NCBI GenBank assembly: GCA_029940695.1
Contig: JAPYUP010000002.1
Span: 1-64,000 of the forward strand
DNA length: 64,000 nt
Direction of reading: 5' to 3'
Source of the DNA: Candidatus Thalassarchaeaceae archaeon
Lineage (GTDB): Archaea; Thermoplasmatota; Poseidoniia; Poseidoniales; Thalassarchaeaceae
In this document: positions 49,933-60,533 of the stretch, in pieces
Numbering within the stretch: the first letter of the stretch is position 1
How the letters are laid out: each line of letters opens with the position of its first letter
Notes under the pieces: model-generated
Databases searched by the model: none
What the model was told of the DNA's origin: nothing
Seen by the model: the letters and a program-made list of their open reading frames with translations, nothing else
Made by a program: the position numbers and the translations under genes

Positions 49933-51171
49933 ATGGAAGGAAATATTTTCGAGAAAATTCTCGGACAAGATAGCCTCTTCACCGATAGAAAGGCCTTCGA
50001 CCACGCGTTCGAACCCTCGCGCCTGCCACATAGGGAGCACGAGGTAGATGCGCTCGTGCGGAACCTAGTCGACGCGCTCAATGGGCACATCCCCTCGAAC
50101 ATGCTCCTTTACGGTGTTCCTGGATCGGGAAAGACCGTAGTAACTAGGTTCGTGCTAGGACAACTCCGAGAGAAGGGAAACGAGATGGGGCAGTTCGTGA
50201 ATACCTACGAAATCAACTGCAGGAACGTGGATACGAAGTACAGGGTTGTTCAGACCATTGCGAGTCAGTTGGCACAACGGGGCGACCCGCCCGTGCCGTT
50301 TACCGGATGGCCGACAGATAGGGTGCTCGAGACTCTGATTATGAGGATGAGCAGGGCTGGAGGAGTTCACATAATTGTACTCGACGAGGTTGACAACCTA
50401 GTCGGCCGAGCAGGAGATGACCTGCTATATGCACTGACTAGTCTGAACACGGTGCTCGATAATGGTCGATGCTCGATTATAGGTATCAGCAACGATTTGC
50501 ATTTCACACAGCATCTGGATCCAAGGGTGAGCTCGAGACTCAGTCAGGAGGATGTGGTTTTCCACCCCTACGTTGCGACTGAGATTCAGAACATTCTCGG
50601 CGAGCGCGCTTCGATGGGCATTAGGGAGGACGTGCTCGAACAAGGCGTGATTAGGCTGTGCGCAGCGCTCGCTGCTCAGGAGCACGGGGATGCGCGGAGA
50701 GCTCTGGACCTGCTCAGAATCTCCGTTCAAAAGGCTGAGCAAAGGGCCCAGTCAAAGGTCGATATCAAACACGTGAGGCTGGCTCAGAGCCAGTTGGAGT
50801 ACGATCAGGTGACGCCGGTGCTCAAAACGCTGCCCCTGCACCAAAAGCTCGTTCTTTTCTCAATCTGCTTGAATGAGGAGAATGGCCTGAGAAACATCTC
50901 GACCGGCGAAGTCTACCGAACCTATGCAGATGCCTGTGCCAAAATCAGCATCGAACCACTGACCACCAGGCGCGTTTCGTCGCTGTTGAACGAGCTCGAT
51001 ACCATCGGACTGATCATGGCGAGAAACGTCAGCAAAGGTAGAGGAGGTCGGAGTAAGCAAGTCAACTCGGCCATCCCAAAGGCCATAGACGCGATATCCT
51101 TGATGAGTGAGAGTGAGCCACTAATCAAAGAGGCCTCCTTTGGAAAGTACCATCTCCAAGTTAATCTTTGA
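49933..51171 (+). CDS. cdc6: Orc1/Cdc6 replication initiator
   Basis: 412 residues. AAA+ ATPase that binds origin ORB sites and loads MCM. Walker A 'GVPGSGKT' (61-68), Walker B 'IIVLDEVDNL' (near 150), sensor-1 'IGISNDLHF', sensor-2 'GDARRALDLLR'. The C-terminal winged helix (about 310-412) includes 'KLVLFSICLNEENGLRNISTGEVY' and 'RRVSSLLNELDTIGLI'. ATG 49933 follows TTAATTA; a T-rich box near 49910 suggests leaderless or short-leader transcription. Overlaps the next gene's possible TTG start by 4 bases. Confidence 0.96.
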   Translation: MEGNIFEKILGQDSLFTDRKAFDHAFEPSRLPHREHEVDALVRNLVDALNGHIPSNMLLYGVPGSGKTVVTRFVLGQLREKGNEMGQFVNTYEINCRNVDTKYRVVQTIASQLAQRGDPPVPFTGWPTDRVLETLIMRMSRAGGVHIIVLDEVDNLVGRAGDDLLYALTSLNTVLDNGRCSIIGISNDLHFTQHLDPRVSSRLSQEDVVFHPYVATEIQNILGERASMGIREDVLEQGVIRLCAALAAQEHGDARRALDLLRISVQKAEQRAQSKVDIKHVRLAQSQLEYDQVTPVLKTLPLHQKLVLFSICLNEENGLRNISTGEVYRTYADACAKISIEPLTTRRVSSLLNELDTIGLIMARNVSKGRGGRSKQVNSAIPKAIDAISLMSESEPLIKEASFGKYHLQVNL

Positions 51172-51746: not shown

Positions 51747-52766
51747 TCAATCACCGCTATCAAACCCACACAGCAGCTTCCTGCAACGCTGTTTGGATTC
51801 CTCGCTGCACCATCTGACGACGACGCCTCTGCCCGGCTGACCGTAGAGCACCACCGAGCCCAACGGAGCCAAGGGATGCAATATTAGTGGGGCAAGGTCC
51901 TCTTCTCCTACTACTTCTATGAGGTAGGTCGAACCGTCTTTCATCCAAGAGGAGACTGCGTGCTCGCAGGCTTCCAATAGTGAGGGAGTGAGGGACCCGG
52001 CGGGACTCTCGCACTGCAGCACTCGGTCGTATGCGGAGGGATCGAGAGCTTCGGCGCCTTCCCATGGCTCCCTCCTAGTTAGTCCGTCAACTAGGGCGAT
52101 GTCGGCGGGTCGGCCAAGGTCCTGCAGCGTGTGGACGGTTACGTCCCCGATGGCGATGACCGGCCCCCGTTCAAACTCGATGAGAGCAATCACCTCTGAC
52201 ATAGCTATGGAAGGATCAGCCTCTGGTCCCGGTACCAACTGGCCGAACGGATCCTTGAGCTCTGCCTCGACCGCGGGAGTCAGGCTGATTTTGCCCTCCC
52301 TCACCGAGTTCGGGATCCAAGGCATACCCGTGCGGTCAATCTCTCCATTCCTGATTCGAGAGCTTGAGAGCGGCTCCCCATCCCAAGCCATGAGGGGCTC
52401 CACCTCGATGACCTCTAGCGGCTGAAGGTGGTTCTGAAATCTCATTGAATTGATTTCGTCGCATGTAGACCGCGTCTCTGGGGTGCAGATAATGGCCCCA
52501 GCCTCTGGATGAGTGGGGGCTGGACCGTAAGGATCGTCGAGGACTCCAAAACTGATGCGCTCAGATGACTTCGGGGCCAATCTATCGCGTATGTCCTGAC
52601 AACGCTCCTCCCAACTCAGTACCCGAGGATCCTTGGAGAGGGCGGATGAATCTGAGGTTATCCACACCTCCAAAGAGGTGCAGGCATCGAGCGATCTCTC
52701 GATGAATCGATAATGGCCATCATGGAAGCGATCGAAGGTGCCGCCGATGAGGCCGACTTCATGCAT
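51747..52766 (-). CDS. Fusion: phosphopantetheine adenylyltransferase + GTP-dependent dephospho-CoA kinase
   Basis: 339 residues from ATG 52766. Residues 1-155 are an archaeal-type CoaD nucleotidyltransferase: 'GLIGGTFDRFHDGHYRFI' (H-x-G-H-like) and 'EPLSSSRIRNGEI' (the R-I-R-x-G motif). Residues about 165-339 match the DUF359 GTP-dependent dephospho-CoA kinase: 'EFERGPVIAIGDVTVHTLQDLGRPADIALVDGLTRR', with the conserved Asp residues (GDV, VDG). Together they would catalyse the last two steps of CoA synthesis, parallel to eukaryotic COASY but with unrelated kinase. The longer ORF start 52841 is not conserved. Confidence 0.85.
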   Translation of the reverse strand: MHEVGLIGGTFDRFHDGHYRFIERSLDACTSLEVWITSDSSALSKDPRVLSWEERCQDIRDRLAPKSSERISFGVLDDPYGPAPTHPEAGAIICTPETRSTCDEINSMRFQNHLQPLEVIEVEPLMAWDGEPLSSSRIRNGEIDRTGMPWIPNSVREGKISLTPAVEAELKDPFGQLVPGPEADPSIAMSEVIALIEFERGPVIAIGDVTVHTLQDLGRPADIALVDGLTRREPWEGAEALDPSAYDRVLQCESPAGSLTPSLLEACEHAVSSWMKDGSTYLIEVVGEEDLAPLILHPLAPLGSVVLYGQPGRGVVVRWCSEESKQRCRKLLCGFDSGD

Positions 52767-52804
52767 CAGGATTCCGCCTGTAGGCCATGCTTTGAGTGCT
52801 GTGG

Positions 52805-53120
52805 AAAAATGTGTGCCCCGGGGCGTAACGGCTACCTTCACAGCGTAGCTCGGGTGCCTGACCCACCCCGGGACGTCTGTCGGATTGCGGGGTAGTCCCT
52901 TGATTCATTCTATACAGTCCTCAGGGGACCTAACGCAATCCGGCCACCTGAATTGCGCCAACGATCACACCGCACAGACGGTCACGCTGGTCTTCGACAG
53001 GTGGTCACCCATTCCGTGGTGCCGTGTTTCATCCTCTACCTCCGGCGAGGGGGGTTCGTCCACACGGTGTTGCCGGTTGGGCATCATGCGGCACCCTGAG
53101 ACGCACAAGAACCCAACGGT
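52805..53120. ncRNA. Structured RNA candidate in 388-base intergenic region
   Basis: The intergenic stretch 52767-53154 has no credible ORF but is dense in complementary pairs. A long hairpin is formed by 52881-52889 with 52934-52942 (9 bp) extended by 52895-52903 with 52921-52929 (9 bp, one G-T). Further pairs: 52831-52835 with 52845-52849, 52944-52950 with 52998-53004, and 52852-52858 with 53090-53096 (7 bp). On the minus strand a GC palindrome (52815-52824) is followed by a T-run, resembling a terminator, and an A/T box occurs near 53143-53150. Length and structure fit an RNase P or SRP-type RNA, but conserved motifs of neither were found. Strand unresolved, minus slightly favoured. Confidence 0.4.
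52815..52824 (-). terminator. Possible terminator of the structured RNA
   Basis: Perfect 10-base GC palindrome (GCCCCGGGGC) followed on the minus strand by ACACATTTTT. Hairpins are not required for archaeal termination, but the T-run is compatible with it. Weak. Confidence 0.3.
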
Positions 53121-53154: not shown

Positions 53155-55764
53155 TCAAGAAAGGTCTGAGTGGAACCCCGAGAGACCTAGAATTAGTCGC
53201 TCGGCCACCGACTGATCTCCATCCATCATCATCTCAATAGTAAATTTCGGCCATCTCTCGGTCGGTTGGGCGAGCCACCCTACTAGACTGTGCGTTCTAC
53301 CAGAGACAGGCGGAGTCTTGTCACGCGCGGACTCGAGGGCGTCCAGTAAGTCCATCAACGGGTCGAGATTCTTCGTAGAGATCTCGTCGCTGGAAATGCT
53401 TCGTATCCTATTCTGTAGCGATTGTATCAACTCGGGATCACAACCTGGGTGTGTGATCGAAGAGAGGCCGGGAGCAACACATTCCTCACCAATGGGACGC
53501 AGGATGGTTGCGCACCATGGAGACCGGTGAGAAAATAGGTCATCCATGCTATCCTCCTGCAGAAGTCGCATTAGTATCTCAGAGGAGATTGGGGCCCACC
53601 ATCCCGGCGGCAAATCTCTTCGAAAATGCCGAATTGCCTCTAAGTCAGCCTTTTGTTCGCCCAAAGTGTGGCTCAGCAGTTTGGACCACGTATTGAGGCA
53701 ATGACCCTCTGGTAACTGCAATCCTCGCTCCCTGATTCTTTGAATCATCTCTTCGTGCTCTCTGGGTGAGCTCTGAGTGTTGTCGTACAGCCATGATACG
53801 CCCCTCAACGCAGAAAGGGATTCCCCGGGAGGTTCTGACAACCATGCCTCCACTGCCCAGCCAAGAAGGTCACCATGGGAGTCGTCGGGCAGCCATGCCG
53901 AATTCTGGATAAATTGAGAGGCTAACCAAGCCGCACCTCTGTTTGCTTGGGTTGGATCTATGGCTGGCCATGATCGAAGTAGGTTGTCAGGATCCTCTCT
54001 GAGCTTCGCGGTAATCTTCTCTGCGTATAGTTCCAATACCGAATCGGATGCTTGGTCGGCAATGCTGGAAATCTTGTCTATGGGGAGATGGTCGACATCC
54101 AAGAGGGCGAGCCATTCTGGGTCCATCCTGGTTGACAGGCGTTGCCACCTTGGCCACCTTGCCCACTGAGGCGAGGCGACCCAAGCTGCAAGTGGGTACC
54201 TCGCCTCCATCTGGTTGGCCCACTCCTCATCACCCTCAGGAAACTGTGACGCTGCTGAGCCGACGATTGATGCCATGTCTCCATCAAGCTTCAAAGGGGT
54301 GAATTCGTGACTAGGGGTACGTCCGAGAATATCCCAAGGAGAAATTGTGTACTGTTCGTTGTCATGGGATGATGCGATAGCCTTGGCCTCCTCCATTAGA
54401 CGAATCGGAATTGCCTTGCCGCCTTTTGTGGAGAAATTCAGCCATGGAAGAGTCCTCAAACGATCCAAACCCAATCTGTCGAGACTCGCGAAGGGGGGCA
54501 TCATCTCATCCAATAGCACCAATCTCAAGTTCGGGTGCGATGCAACGATCGATAGTATATCGTTTGGCAAGTGAGCCGCTATCTCTAGGACGAGCGGGGT
54601 CCCGTCAACTTCCTGCAAGGACCAGAGAATGAGTGACTCGCTGGCAGACTTCCCCAGGCCTCTGAGGTCGACTAGTCGGATGGATGATTCCTCGGTCGAA
54701 AAGCTCGCGCTGCCCCAATCCCTCCTGAAACGTCGCCATGTCGAGTCGTCGGTCTTGACTCTCCTGGAAGTCGAAATTCTGTCACGGATAGCCTGTAGTC
54801 TCCTACGTCGCTCGTGGTCAGTCAGCCTTGGATGCGCCCTCTGTATCCAATAATCCAGTGCTGACATTGGATACTCTCTGCCCTCCAAGTGTAAACCACC
54901 CAAATCAGCGACCACTATTGCATTCGACTTTGCTGATCTGAGCAGGACCGATCTGGGGAGCCTCTCCTTTATCGGTGCAGCGACAGGCTGGTTCGGACGG
55001 ACAACAGGGGCCATCTCATGGCACGAGCCCAAGACCCATGGGCCGCGGTGGTAAGCGAGTTCGTCGAGTGGTGGGTCTGGCTTAGAGCGCGGCGGTGAGA
55101 ACCACGCCCCCGGAGAGACGGTGATTGACGGATCCTCGTCGAGCAACCTTGCCCTCATCACACCAACAACCGGAGCCTGGCCCACGTACGCCTCGATCCT
55201 CTCTGGGTCTGCGAGGTTTGGGGGGGCTTCCACCACTTCCATGTTGCCGAGATCGAACCAGCGCGGAGAACGCTCTGTTAGCACGGCCCAATTCCAAGAC
55301 ACCCCCTGGTTTCTAGTCGAAGCAGGATGGTCGCCTGAGGGCGGTGGTAGGCGATTTGGTATTAGCACCAGGGGATCACTAGGGGGAGTGAGAAAACAAA
55401 GGAGGAGGTTTGTCTCATCCCGAGAGAGAATGCAGTAACCATTCCGATTTGAGGGTAGTTCGGTTACTGTCAACGCCTTCGACCACTCGTCGTCCTGCAG
55501 CGTCATCCATCCCTTCTCAGTCAAGCGGATTTGTGATCCACGGCTCCCGGGGGGCAAGTCGCTAGAAACCAAGTTCTCTTCCCTCATTCTGCGAATCTCG
55601 GCCGATGCGTGAGGTACCCTCAGTCCCGAATCCACCGCTAGTTCGCTCACAGTTGCTTCACCCTCTGCGAGCCTAGAAATGAGCCTCGAACGGTGCTTGC
55701 TTCTGATTCTACGAGGTGAGATAGAATAGGCCCGTCCCATATCACTCTCGGAACCAATTGACAC
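53155..55764 (-). CDS. Large winged-helix protein of unknown function next to AT-rich island
   Basis: 869 residues. The N-terminal ~90 residues form a MarR/ArsR-like winged helix: 'RSKHRSRLISRLAEGEATVSELAVDSGLRVPHASAEIRRM' (helices plus recognition helix) then 'SQIRLTEKGWMTLQDDE' (wing). The remaining ~780 residues match no family I know. There is a beta-rich part to about 300, then Trp-rich helical repeats, including a 'WARWPRWQRLSTRMDPEWLALL' type segment. It begins at GTG 55764 with AGGTGAT (55771-55776 on complement) nine bases upstream and TTTATT box at about 55781-55786. A regulator or replication-linked factor is possible but not shown. Confidence 0.6.
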   Translation of the reverse strand: MSIGSESDMGRAYSISPRRIRSKHRSRLISRLAEGEATVSELAVDSGLRVPHASAEIRRMREENLVSSDLPPGSRGSQIRLTEKGWMTLQDDEWSKALTVTELPSNRNGYCILSRDETNLLLCFLTPPSDPLVLIPNRLPPPSGDHPASTRNQGVSWNWAVLTERSPRWFDLGNMEVVEAPPNLADPERIEAYVGQAPVVGVMRARLLDEDPSITVSPGAWFSPPRSKPDPPLDELAYHRGPWVLGSCHEMAPVVRPNQPVAAPIKERLPRSVLLRSAKSNAIVVADLGGLHLEGREYPMSALDYWIQRAHPRLTDHERRRRLQAIRDRISTSRRVKTDDSTWRRFRRDWGSASFSTEESSIRLVDLRGLGKSASESLILWSLQEVDGTPLVLEIAAHLPNDILSIVASHPNLRLVLLDEMMPPFASLDRLGLDRLRTLPWLNFSTKGGKAIPIRLMEEAKAIASSHDNEQYTISPWDILGRTPSHEFTPLKLDGDMASIVGSAASQFPEGDEEWANQMEARYPLAAWVASPQWARWPRWQRLSTRMDPEWLALLDVDHLPIDKISSIADQASDSVLELYAEKITAKLREDPDNLLRSWPAIDPTQANRGAAWLASQFIQNSAWLPDDSHGDLLGWAVEAWLSEPPGESLSALRGVSWLYDNTQSSPREHEEMIQRIRERGLQLPEGHCLNTWSKLLSHTLGEQKADLEAIRHFRRDLPPGWWAPISSEILMRLLQEDSMDDLFSHRSPWCATILRPIGEECVAPGLSSITHPGCDPELIQSLQNRIRSISSDEISTKNLDPLMDLLDALESARDKTPPVSGRTHSLVGWLAQPTERWPKFTIEMMMDGDQSVAERLILGLSGFHSDLS

Positions 55765-55839
55765 GAACTATCACCTACAAATAAAGTCACATTGTAACCT
55801 AGTATTAAATTATGCTATTTCATTACATTTAATTACATA

Positions 55840-55851
55840 TTTCCACTGGAA
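55840..55851 (-). promoter_or_regulatory. Mini-ORB-like Orc1/Cdc6 binding site
   Basis: 12-base match to TTCCAGTGGAAA on the minus strand, set in AT-rich non-coding DNA 4.7 kb from the cdc6 stop. The core is an inverted repeat, TTCCA-CTGGAA. Confidence 0.5.
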
Positions 55852-55949
55852 TAATTACTGCTTCCAATTGTGCACCGGATATTGGTGGTGATTATCAACA
55901 GTATTGTGTCACTATCTGTAACCAACGAGACGAAATACATACAGAAGCG

Positions 55950-55956
55950 TTATATC
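55950..55956 (+). promoter_or_regulatory. TATA-like box of the small winged-helix gene
   Basis: TTATATC, 66 bases before the ATG at 56022. This implies a leader of about 40 bases carrying the AGGTGAT ribosome-binding site at 56010-56016. Confidence 0.4.
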
Positions 55957-56021
55957 ACCATCCGCCTTCCTGTGAAAGACGGCTCGAAAACAGAGTCGTG
56001 GATAGCACCAGGTGATAGAAA

Positions 56022-56273
56022 ATGAGAACAACTAGACTAAGGCAGAAGATTAAGAAATTCCTAGATGAGAGAGGCGAGGCGAATACGACCGAGATCCTCG
56101 AACACGTGAACTCTACGATGAGGCACGGGACAACACCTCAACAGCTTGGTAACGTCCTATCGAAGGACAAGGACATTCTCAAGGTCGCCACCACCAAACG
56201 CGGTGGCGCGCTATCGGGAAGGTACGAGATATGCGTGTGGCAGGTCCGCCCGGGCGCGCTTGACAAGAACTGA
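56022..56273 (+). CDS. Small winged-helix-like DNA-binding protein
   Basis: 83 residues. 'LRQKIKKFLDERGEANTTEILEHVNSTMRHGTTPQQLGNVLS' reads as helix-helix-recognition helix of a winged-helix domain, followed by 'ILKVATTKRGGALSGRYEICVW' as the wing. Starts with ATG 56022 after a strong AGGTGAT site. Convergent with the aldolase gene, whose stop directly abuts its own. Likely a lineage-specific regulator; target unknown. Confidence 0.65.
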   Translation: MRTTRLRQKIKKFLDERGEANTTEILEHVNSTMRHGTTPQQLGNVLSKDKDILKVATTKRGGALSGRYEICVWQVRPGALDKN

Positions 56274-58365: not shown

Positions 58366-58866
58366 TCAATCCTGCGGGTCACCCTTTGACTTCCTTACCA
58401 CGTGGACGTCCTGTACTCTGGCGTTCGGGTACTGGCCCTCGGAGTCCTTCTCAATCGGCTTGAGCATATCCCAAGCACACAAAAGCCCGGCGCTGACGCC
58501 ACACAGCGCTTCCATCTCCACCCCTGTCGTCCAGTGAGTCCGAACCGAAACAGTGCAACGCAATCCTGCTTTCTCGACCTCCCAGTCGACCGTGCAGCCT
58601 TCGATTGGCACGGGGTGGCAGTGCGGCAGGGTCCTAGGGGTCTCCTTGACAGCCTGGATTGAAGCAACAGTGGATGCCTCGCGCACGTCTCCCTTGGGCG
58701 AGCGGCCATTCGCGACCACGTCTAGTCCCTCGGGGGACAGCGTCAGAACACCAGTTGCAACGGCCTCACGGGCGACGACCGGTTTTGAGCCGACGTCTAC
58801 GATACCGGTCCACGAGCCATCCATAACCACACCAGACACCCCTCGGATAGGATGCTCCCTCTTCAT
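58366..58866 (-). CDS. moaC: Cyclic pyranopterin monophosphate synthase (MoaC)
   Basis: 166 residues from ATG 58866. Early molybdenum-cofactor enzyme. 'VVAREAVATGVLTLSPEGLDVV' and 'SPKGDVREASTVASIQAVKETPRTLPHCHPVPIEG' carry the conserved Lys/Gly/Asp and LCHP-like (PHCHP) motifs; 'TGVEMEALCGVSAGLLCAWDMLKPIEK' has the catalytic Asp/Met/Lys region. The frame remains open to 59301 but that part overlaps the opposite-strand ferredoxin gene. MoaA is not in the window. Confidence 0.9.
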   Translation of the reverse strand: MKREHPIRGVSGVVMDGSWTGIVDVGSKPVVAREAVATGVLTLSPEGLDVVANGRSPKGDVREASTVASIQAVKETPRTLPHCHPVPIEGCTVDWEVEKAGLRCTVSVRTHWTTGVEMEALCGVSAGLLCAWDMLKPIEKDSEGQYPNARVQDVHVVRKSKGDPQD

Positions 58867-58918
58867 AGGCTCGCAAGATTGGCATTGGGATGAAATACCA
58901 ACATGTGGATTGGGTAGT

Positions 58919-59179
58919 ATGGCGGAGGCGTTCCGTGACAGGGCCACCCCCGGGACGGTGCCGATCCTGATATCGGGCTTGGCACACGACAGGCCCGCTA
59001 CCGATGGTGTCAAGCTGCAGGTGATCGACGACCTCTGCGTTGGCTGCTCGTACTGCCTGATGGCTTGCAAAGACGATGCCCTAGTCGTCGAAGGGCTGTG
59101 CGAGGTCATCGAGCAGAATTGCACCGACTGCCTCCTATGCCTGCTGTGGTGCCCGACGGGCGCCTTAGTGTATGCATGA
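58919..59179 (+). CDS. Small two-cluster [4Fe-4S] ferredoxin-like protein
   Basis: 86 residues from ATG 58919. Two cluster motifs: 'DLCVGCSYCLMACKDDAL' (Cys-x2-Cys-x2-Cys-x3-Cys) and 'NCTDCLLCLLWCPTGAL' (Cys-x2-Cys-x2-Cys-x3-Cys-Pro). An N-terminal 'RDRATPGTVPILISGLAHDRP' strand precedes them. The second cluster has the typical Pro after the fourth Cys and the first has Lys there. Overlaps the next gene by 8 bases, so it probably feeds electrons to the downstream flavoprotein. Confidence 0.8.
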   Translation: MAEAFRDRATPGTVPILISGLAHDRPATDGVKLQVIDDLCVGCSYCLMACKDDALVVEGLCEVIEQNCTDCLLCLLWCPTGALVYA

Positions 59180-60533
59180 GGTGGAATTAGTGGGGAAATC
59201 GAAGGCCGTAGTGATTGGTGCGGGCGTCGGGGGGCTGTCATCGGCAGCCCAACTCGCACAGACAGGAAAGTACGATGTCTCGGTATACGAGAGGATGTCA
59301 TTCGCTGGCGGTCGCTTCACTCAACACGACCACGACGGGTTTCAGATTCCCACTGGCGCGGTCCACATGATTCCGCACGGGTGCAAAGGGCCATTCGCAG
59401 ACCTCCTGTTGGGGAAGCGTAGCAAAGGAGGGCTGGATCTCGGGCGTCACGGCGTCGAGTTCCTCCCGACGACCAAGTTCGCTTGCCAACTCAAGGACGG
59501 CAGCCTCTACGGCGCTGATTCTGTCTATGGTATCCTGCCTTGGTTCCCAATGAAAAATGCGCTGAACCTGCCCCGGCTCCTCGCTAAGCGCGCCAAGCGG
59601 CCCTGGGGGAATGAGACCGAGGATGGACGAACATGGCTGAAGCGCTTGTTCACGGACGACTTCATTGACTTCTTGGATGCGTTTTCCAACTTCGCCATCA
59701 GCCTGCGCTTCGACCAGATGCCTGCCTCGACAGTCATCAGGATACTGCAGAACTCATTCTGGAGCGACAGGCCCTATATTCCCAAAGGCGGGTGCAAGGG
59801 AGTGATTGATGGATTGAAGGCTGATTTGAAGCAGCATGGGGCGCGAGTCAAGTTATCGCACGAGATTACCGAGATTCTTCCCGGTGAGGCGGAGGAGTCC
59901 ACCAAGGAGAAGCGATTCTGCATAGGCGTGAGGCGCCGGGGCAGGGAAAACCCGACTTGGTTAGGTGCCGATGCAATAGTCCACAATGGCGGGCACCCAA
60001 ACCTCCTGAGCTCCCTCTCTGATGACTTCGAGGTGGCAGAGGGCGTCCGTGAACAGGTCGCGAACACACAGGCAGTCGGCGGAATCGGATTCGTCTTCGA
60101 CCTCGACGACGAGATTCCACACCGTGACAGTGGTGTAACGATGCTGCCGAACCTCGACAGAGTAGGCGGATACGTGATACCGACATTCTCGGAGCCTGGA
60201 TTGGCCCCCGAGGGAAGACACATGATGATCACACACCAGTACGTCCCCGACCCCAGCGTGAAGTCCGAGATTTCCAAAGGTAGGGATGATCTCTACGAAG
60301 CGATACCATGGCTCTCCGACCACGGCGAGGAGTTGTGCGTGCACACCTACCATAGGAACTGGCCGTGCAACCGCGCCCCACAGGGCGCGGAGTTACCGGC
60401 TGACATCGGGGTCGAGGGTATCAGGCTCGTTGGGGATGGAGTGAAGGGACATGGGTGGATGATGGTAGAGGGGATTGCGGCCAACGTCCCTAGCGCTGTG
60501 AGAGACGTCAGCAGAACAATGGATGGGGCCTAG
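59172..60533 (+). CDS. Phytoene desaturase-like FAD oxidoreductase
   Basis: 453 residues. 'KAVVIGAGVGGLSSAAQLAQTGKYDVSVYERMSFAGGRF' is the CrtI-type FAD start with the GG-R/F motif. 'IRLVGDGVKGHGWMMVEGIAANVPSAV' is the C-terminal FAD motif. Related to carotenoid desaturases and isoprenoid reductases (amine-oxidase superfamily). Substrate unknown; a lipid or isoprenoid is plausible. Translation is coupled to the ferredoxin by an 8-base overlap. It is convergent with moaE. Confidence 0.8.
   Translation: MHEVELVGKSKAVVIGAGVGGLSSAAQLAQTGKYDVSVYERMSFAGGRFTQHDHDGFQIPTGAVHMIPHGCKGPFADLLLGKRSKGGLDLGRHGVEFLPTTKFACQLKDGSLYGADSVYGILPWFPMKNALNLPRLLAKRAKRPWGNETEDGRTWLKRLFTDDFIDFLDAFSNFAISLRFDQMPASTVIRILQNSFWSDRPYIPKGGCKGVIDGLKADLKQHGARVKLSHEITEILPGEAEESTKEKRFCIGVRRRGRENPTWLGADAIVHNGGHPNLLSSLSDDFEVAEGVREQVANTQAVGGIGFVFDLDDEIPHRDSGVTMLPNLDRVGGYVIPTFSEPGLAPEGRHMMITHQYVPDPSVKSEISKGRDDLYEAIPWLSDHGEELCVHTYHRNWPCNRAPQGAELPADIGVEGIRLVGDGVKGHGWMMVEGIAANVPSAVRDVSRTMDGA

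Follow-up and report, generated by a model that had tools for sequence, protein, structure and literature searches.

In the window, i.e., the whole stretch of 64,000 nucleotides analysed here, a non-coding gap of 257 bp (55765-56021) separates the divergent genes of wh869 and of a DUF3860 protein and harbors a palindrome of the mini-ORB type, raising the question of whether this island is part of a replication origin or rather serves the adjacent genes. The A+T content of the gap amounts to 63%, compared to 43% for the whole window. The palindrome (A1, Table 1) is located 4.67 kb from the cdc6 stop codon (position 51171) on the downstream side of that gene, in full agreement with a previous sequence-only reading, which had described a 12-base mini-ORB core in A/T-rich non-coding DNA about 4.7 kb past the cdc6 stop. 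The exact 12-mer is present once in the window, where simple arithmetic predicts about 0.008 copies on both strands. Searching the island for structured RNA did not result in any Rfam match.

Table 1. Position and properties of genes and sequence elements of the cdc6-DUF3860 locus in the window.
Feature	Position	Strand	Description
orc1/cdc6-1	49933..51171	+	Distance to DUF3860 of 5-6 kb maintained throughout the order
wh869	53155..55764	-	869-residue protein; N-terminal HTH_5-like winged helix (weak match), otherwise no Pfam family; fast evolving
A2	55302..55321	-	ORB with G-string, within the wh869 coding sequence; TTCGACTAGAAACCAGGGGG
Likely TATA box, wh869 gene	55802..55810	-	ATTTAATAC (ATTTATTA in relatives); conserved A/T block just beyond the element; putative promoter role
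Element containing A1	55822..55852	+	About 31 bp; [GA]TTACATTTNRTTAYANATTTCCASTGGARA; single copy per genome
Two direct repeats	55822-55828, 55832-55838	+	ATTACAT/GTTACAT; 10 bp (one helical turn) apart; occupying the place of the G-string beside A1
A1	55840..55851	-	Mini-ORB palindrome without G-string; TTCCAGTGGAAA (plus strand, TTTCCACTGGAA)
TGTAACCA block, sense opposite	55917..55924	+	Conserved; about 30 bp ahead of the DUF3860 TATA-like box
Likely TATA box, DUF3860 gene	55949..55957	+	GTTATATCA; putative promoter role
DUF3860 gene	56022..56273	+	PF12976, 83 aa; probable winged helix; relative of PDB 2od5

Wherever one contig carries both genes, cdc6 and DUF3860 are linked at a distance of 5-6 kb without being adjacent. 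Among the genomes searched, DUF3860 was found only in Ca. Poseidoniales and, at 98.8% identity, it is the most conserved protein compared in this block (cdc6, 88%; wh869, 57%). A single-sequence structure model of DUF3860 (pLDDT 66) shows the order helix-helix-helix-strand-strand. Besides, a distant paralogue is encoded elsewhere (G000:C41:654-869), and tandem duplicates are present in several genera. The neighborhood of cdc6 in the window also includes, both on the minus strand, a cytidylyltransferase-like domain fused to DUF359 (51747-52841) and a MoaC domain protein (58366-59301).

A chance origin of A1 can be dismissed, as the palindrome is embedded in an element conserved once per genome across the order and always upstream of DUF3860. 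Mean column identity of this element is 0.92 in 23 genus loci, compared to 0.74 in the rest of the gap. Of 60 genomes of Ca. Poseidoniales (Marine Group II), 44 contain a corresponding 29-bp pattern in exactly one copy, which is placed upstream of DUF3860 every time; the reversed control had no matches in the same 60-genome search, and the pattern itself was not found among the sampled genomes of the phylum outside the order. Conservation in relatives, on which the sequence-only reading had made its palindrome depend, is thereby established. The element is found 165-169 nt from the DUF3860 start in nearly every genus locus read, and the second family of the order shows the same block, usually 172-176 nt ahead of DUF3860; values of 213-214 or about 450 nt are observed in cases of a deviating promoter or tandem gene copy. 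On the minus strand, the element stands just ahead of the conserved wh869 TATA-like box. On the plus strand, TGTAACCA and then the DUF3860 TATA-like box, the latter being conserved more strongly than any other block of the gap (identity 0.95-0.96), follow about 75 nt beyond it.

Bare palindromes elsewhere, on the other hand, are mostly due to chance. Many scattered mini-ORBs were considered and rejected, the bare palindrome being no commoner in the other family than a reversed control (counts summed by hand). Over all contigs of the genome from which the window derives, TTCCASTGGAA is found at four sites and the reversed control at none. Apart from A1, two of these sites (L001 and L003) lie within long ORFs and score as non-ORBs, and the remaining one (L002) is an ORB in the mcm promoter.

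For scoring complete ORBs, a position weight matrix (PWM) was trained on the locus of a beta-CASP nuclease gene alone and then applied to the window and its relatives. A1 achieves the top core score of the window (21.6) at a full ORB score of -0.7; it matches the dyad core TTCCASTGGAAA exactly and is missing the G-string (GGGG, 4 nt past the core). By definition, mini-ORBs lack this G-string. The top full-PWM score of the window (20.2; runner-up, 1.1) is obtained for a second site, A2, which was first detected by a pattern search for core plus G-string and combines a core bearing two mismatches with an intact G-string. A2 is situated within wh869 at a distance of 520 bp from A1, with coding DNA between the two, and recurs at the equivalent position in nearly all DUF3860 loci read. 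Since the site also encodes peptide, codon usage was tested with 54 sequences and 148 scored columns. The Ser and Gly codons of A2 are the two most constant of all 148 columns (TCC in 50 of 52, GGG in 50 of 50), whereas all four codons are in use at the other conserved Gly columns of wh869, a protein showing only 25% identity between the families. Hence, A2 is constrained as DNA, kept as a site and not merely as peptide.

Among the best 150 model matches in 60 genomes, 131 are located at just three loci, with 57 matches (34 genomes) at the beta-CASP gene, 47 (one in each of 47 genomes) at mcm and 27 at the cdc6-DUF3860 locus. Similarly, the four top PWM matches in the 1.29 Mb sampled from the complete relative CM001443.1 are the beta-CASP pair, the site upstream of mcm and A2, with scores of 29-35 (next, 17). 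The mcm ORB is in mcm orientation in all 47 genomes (in the 47th, the mcm start was placed by hand) and about 20 bp ahead of a TATA-like box; in the window's own genome it is found at C39:16050-16069 (L002:1492-1511). A mini-ORB-like core often lies 50-53 bp further upstream and is the best core match in 12 of 17 loci, with varying mismatches. At the beta-CASP locus, a diverging ORB pair with G-strings is placed between the nuclease gene and an oxidoreductase-like gene (CM001443.1 192379-213686, L323; L284-L363). Such a pair, 144-174 bp apart around a core of 65% A+T, is present in 71 of 72 beta-CASP loci and in none of 635 control windows. The assembly of the window's own genome does not contain this locus. 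In several fragmented assemblies, the beta-CASP gene is found 1.9-2.5 kb from a contig end (G005:C38, G012:C3, G013:C28, G022:C32, G027:C2, and G030:C2), which might reflect a tendency of assemblies to break in the vicinity of the candidate origin. Besides, the Poseidoniales beta-CASP locus appears on contigs titled Rhodobiaceae and Flavobacteriales (L295, CALDQY010000197.1; L329, NYSX01000075.1), probably by binning contamination. Neither an account of a Poseidoniales origin nor a description of an ORB-bearing mcm promoter in archaea was found in the literature searched, which was largely without subscription papers.

The palindrome had initially been suggested to mark an origin, with a skew extremum expected close to it. 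As the window's own genome consists of 44 contigs, skew partition was run on CM001443.1 (2,064,136 bp). AT skew at fourfold sites breaks close to 0.12 Mb and close to 1.24 Mb, i.e., 0.36-0.58 Mb off the cdc6-DUF3860 locus at 1.824 Mb, and no significant partition of this chromosome was obtained with GC skew. A local strand switch at the cdc6-DUF3860 locus was not detected in six genomes either (p = 0.44 for AT, 0.84 for GC). Across the beta-CASP locus, fourfold sites change from -0.105 to +0.072 in AT skew (p = 1e-8) and from +0.069 to -0.092 in GC skew (p = 3e-11), with both gene orientations in agreement. Likewise, the beta-CASP locus is the only one of the three ORB loci with the usual origin architecture, two inverted ORBs on either side of an A/T-rich core; no such pair is present at the cdc6-DUF3860 locus. 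An origin 5' of cdc6 was considered as well and rejected: the 400 nt upstream are A/T-rich but weakly conserved, with a mean identity of 0.58 in 23 genus loci, and contain no ORB.

The cdc6-DUF3860 locus, therefore, is in all likelihood not the main origin, and this conclusion is independent of the origin call for the beta-CASP locus. The cdc6 linkage, the mini-ORB and the A/T-rich gap would all suit the primary chromosomal origin originally proposed, but with skew breakpoints this distant, no local switch, a palindrome devoid of the G-string and a better ORB pair at the beta-CASP locus, such a function is extremely unlikely. The related proposal of an origin zone extending over the 869-residue gene holds insofar as a full ORB is indeed found inside this gene and the cdc6 link is order-wide, while the origin function itself is unsupported.

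The diverging pair at the beta-CASP gene is probably the best origin candidate of the Poseidoniales. This assignment is based on the way the ORBs are arranged and on the local switch in the pooled data and not on global geometry, as the global skew does not fit. In CM001443.1, a breakpoint fixed at the beta-CASP locus performs no better than random (267 versus a random median of 282), and the sign of the local switch is opposite to that of the long arcs, so that a single beta-CASP origin with matching global skew was rejected. The sign is instead that of a sharp, strand-corrected AT-skew switch at about 1.23 Mb (L130, L219, L131), almost exactly opposite the beta-CASP locus. No ORB was found at this switch, which may represent a terminus or else an origin of another type.

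Strand composition is blind to a rarely used origin, and two ORB-type sites near cdc6 are compatible with a weak origin as well. If the locus served as an origin that is secondary, late or dormant, Cdc6-1 would be loaded close to the gene encoding it, at both A1 and A2, with the A/T-rich gap unwinding on rare occasions. Besides the two sites, the gap, the proximity of cdc6 and the constraint on A2 as DNA, several origins are known in some archaea (PMC4010727), and Sulfolobus oriC3 lies beside a winged-helix initiator gene. Nevertheless, the six genomes without strand switch, the position of A2 in coding DNA far from a G-string-less A1, unlike the compact beta-CASP pair, and the mcm case, showing that ORBs also occupy promoters in Poseidoniales, make a secondary origin unlikely.

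We instead favor, at a probability of roughly 0.55, the island being an Orc1/Cdc6-linked regulatory element in the divergent wh869/DUF3860 promoter, with the main origin located elsewhere, most likely at the beta-CASP ORB pair. A1 would then combine a mini-ORB for Orc1/Cdc6 with GTAAC-type repeats immediately ahead of the wh869 TATA box, and Cdc6-1 bound to it would set transcription of the divergent gene pair. A GTAAC-binding protein, for which DUF3860 is a candidate, may help or oppose Cdc6-1 at A1, and A2 may act as auxiliary operator within wh869, either by looping or as a roadblock. Together, A1 and A2 would form one initiator-binding locus controlling two winged-helix genes. From the sequence we infer binding of Orc1/Cdc6 to A1 and A2, its transcriptional effect and direction as well as the role of A2. 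The nearest parallel is the mcm promoter of the same genomes. A1 is directed at the wh869 TATA box over a comparable distance, and its conserved flank is on the side of this box. In both cases, the distance to the gene varies little, with 165-176 nt between element and DUF3860 in the genus and in most of the genomes read from the other family, and 64-99 bp between ORB and mcm in 46 of 47 genomes.

As A1 is without G-string and ORB-like on its core only, it is possibly the site of another protein. DUF3860 or wh869 might bind here for autoregulation, with a merely coincidental mini-ORB likeness. In line with this, A1 is flanked by two probable winged-helix genes, its conserved flank consists of GTAAC repeats instead of a G-string, and the core of the element drifts from the ORB dyad in some genera, for example, to TTTCTTATGGAA. 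However, no other site in the window matches the ORB core better than A1 when scored with a model trained independently, and a complete ORB is conserved in its vicinity, rendering an operator for another protein quite improbable. Even less can be said for a sink of the initiator comparable to E. coli datA, at which ORBs would titrate Cdc6 and time initiation while leaving nearby genes unregulated. The intragenic A2, yet kept as DNA, would be in accordance with titration, but datA-like sites carry clusters of boxes, whereas just one or two are present here and close to TATA-like boxes, so that a sink is very unlikely.

The promoter reading of the island can be compared with known systems at several levels. 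A1 and A2 share the dyad core of archaeal ORBs and mini-ORBs, A2 with two mismatches and with its GGGG at the spacing of Methanomassiliicoccales ORBs (PMC4153887, Table 2). They differ from these in the GTAAC repeats of A1 and in the location of A2 within a coding sequence, and binding to both is predicted. In the sister lineage Methanomassiliicoccales, ORBs flank orc1/cdc6.1 (PMC4153887), whereas those of the Poseidoniales are found at three other places. With the cdc6-adjacent oriC of Pyrococcus, Sulfolobus (oriC1) and haloarchaea, the locus has ORB-type sites, an A/T-rich gap and linkage to cdc6-1 in common, but it is positioned 5-6 kb downstream of cdc6 and shows neither a strand switch nor a compact inverted pair.

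DnaA boxes occur at bacterial promoters. As at initiator-controlled promoters, an initiator-type box is found just ahead of a TATA-like box at both mcm and wh869/DUF3860, for which position and conservation suggest a corresponding role. In Poseidoniales, the boxes correspond to the replication initiator itself and not to a dedicated non-initiator paralogue; haloarchaeal Orc1-2, for comparison, is a damage-response regulator (PMC9738581). Tentatively, and at somewhat less than even odds, the Orc1/Cdc6-1 of Poseidoniales may also regulate transcription. Its regulon would be tiny, shared by the whole order and recognizable from the initiator's own ORBs, and would comprise mcm and wh869/DUF3860, one of these ORBs being inside a coding sequence.

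For the Poseidoniales, abundant uncultured marine archaea, a specific candidate origin at a distance from cdc6 is now available, and all three conserved initiator-box loci could be probed with one purified protein. In addition, a predicted protein-binding DNA site is found to be preserved within a fast-evolving gene. If the proposed role is true, the locus would represent an archaeal counterpart to the control of replication genes by DnaA, with an origin uncoupled from cdc6. By means of these loci, the question of whether initiators of archaea control replication genes in the manner of DnaA can be addressed directly through binding and expression.
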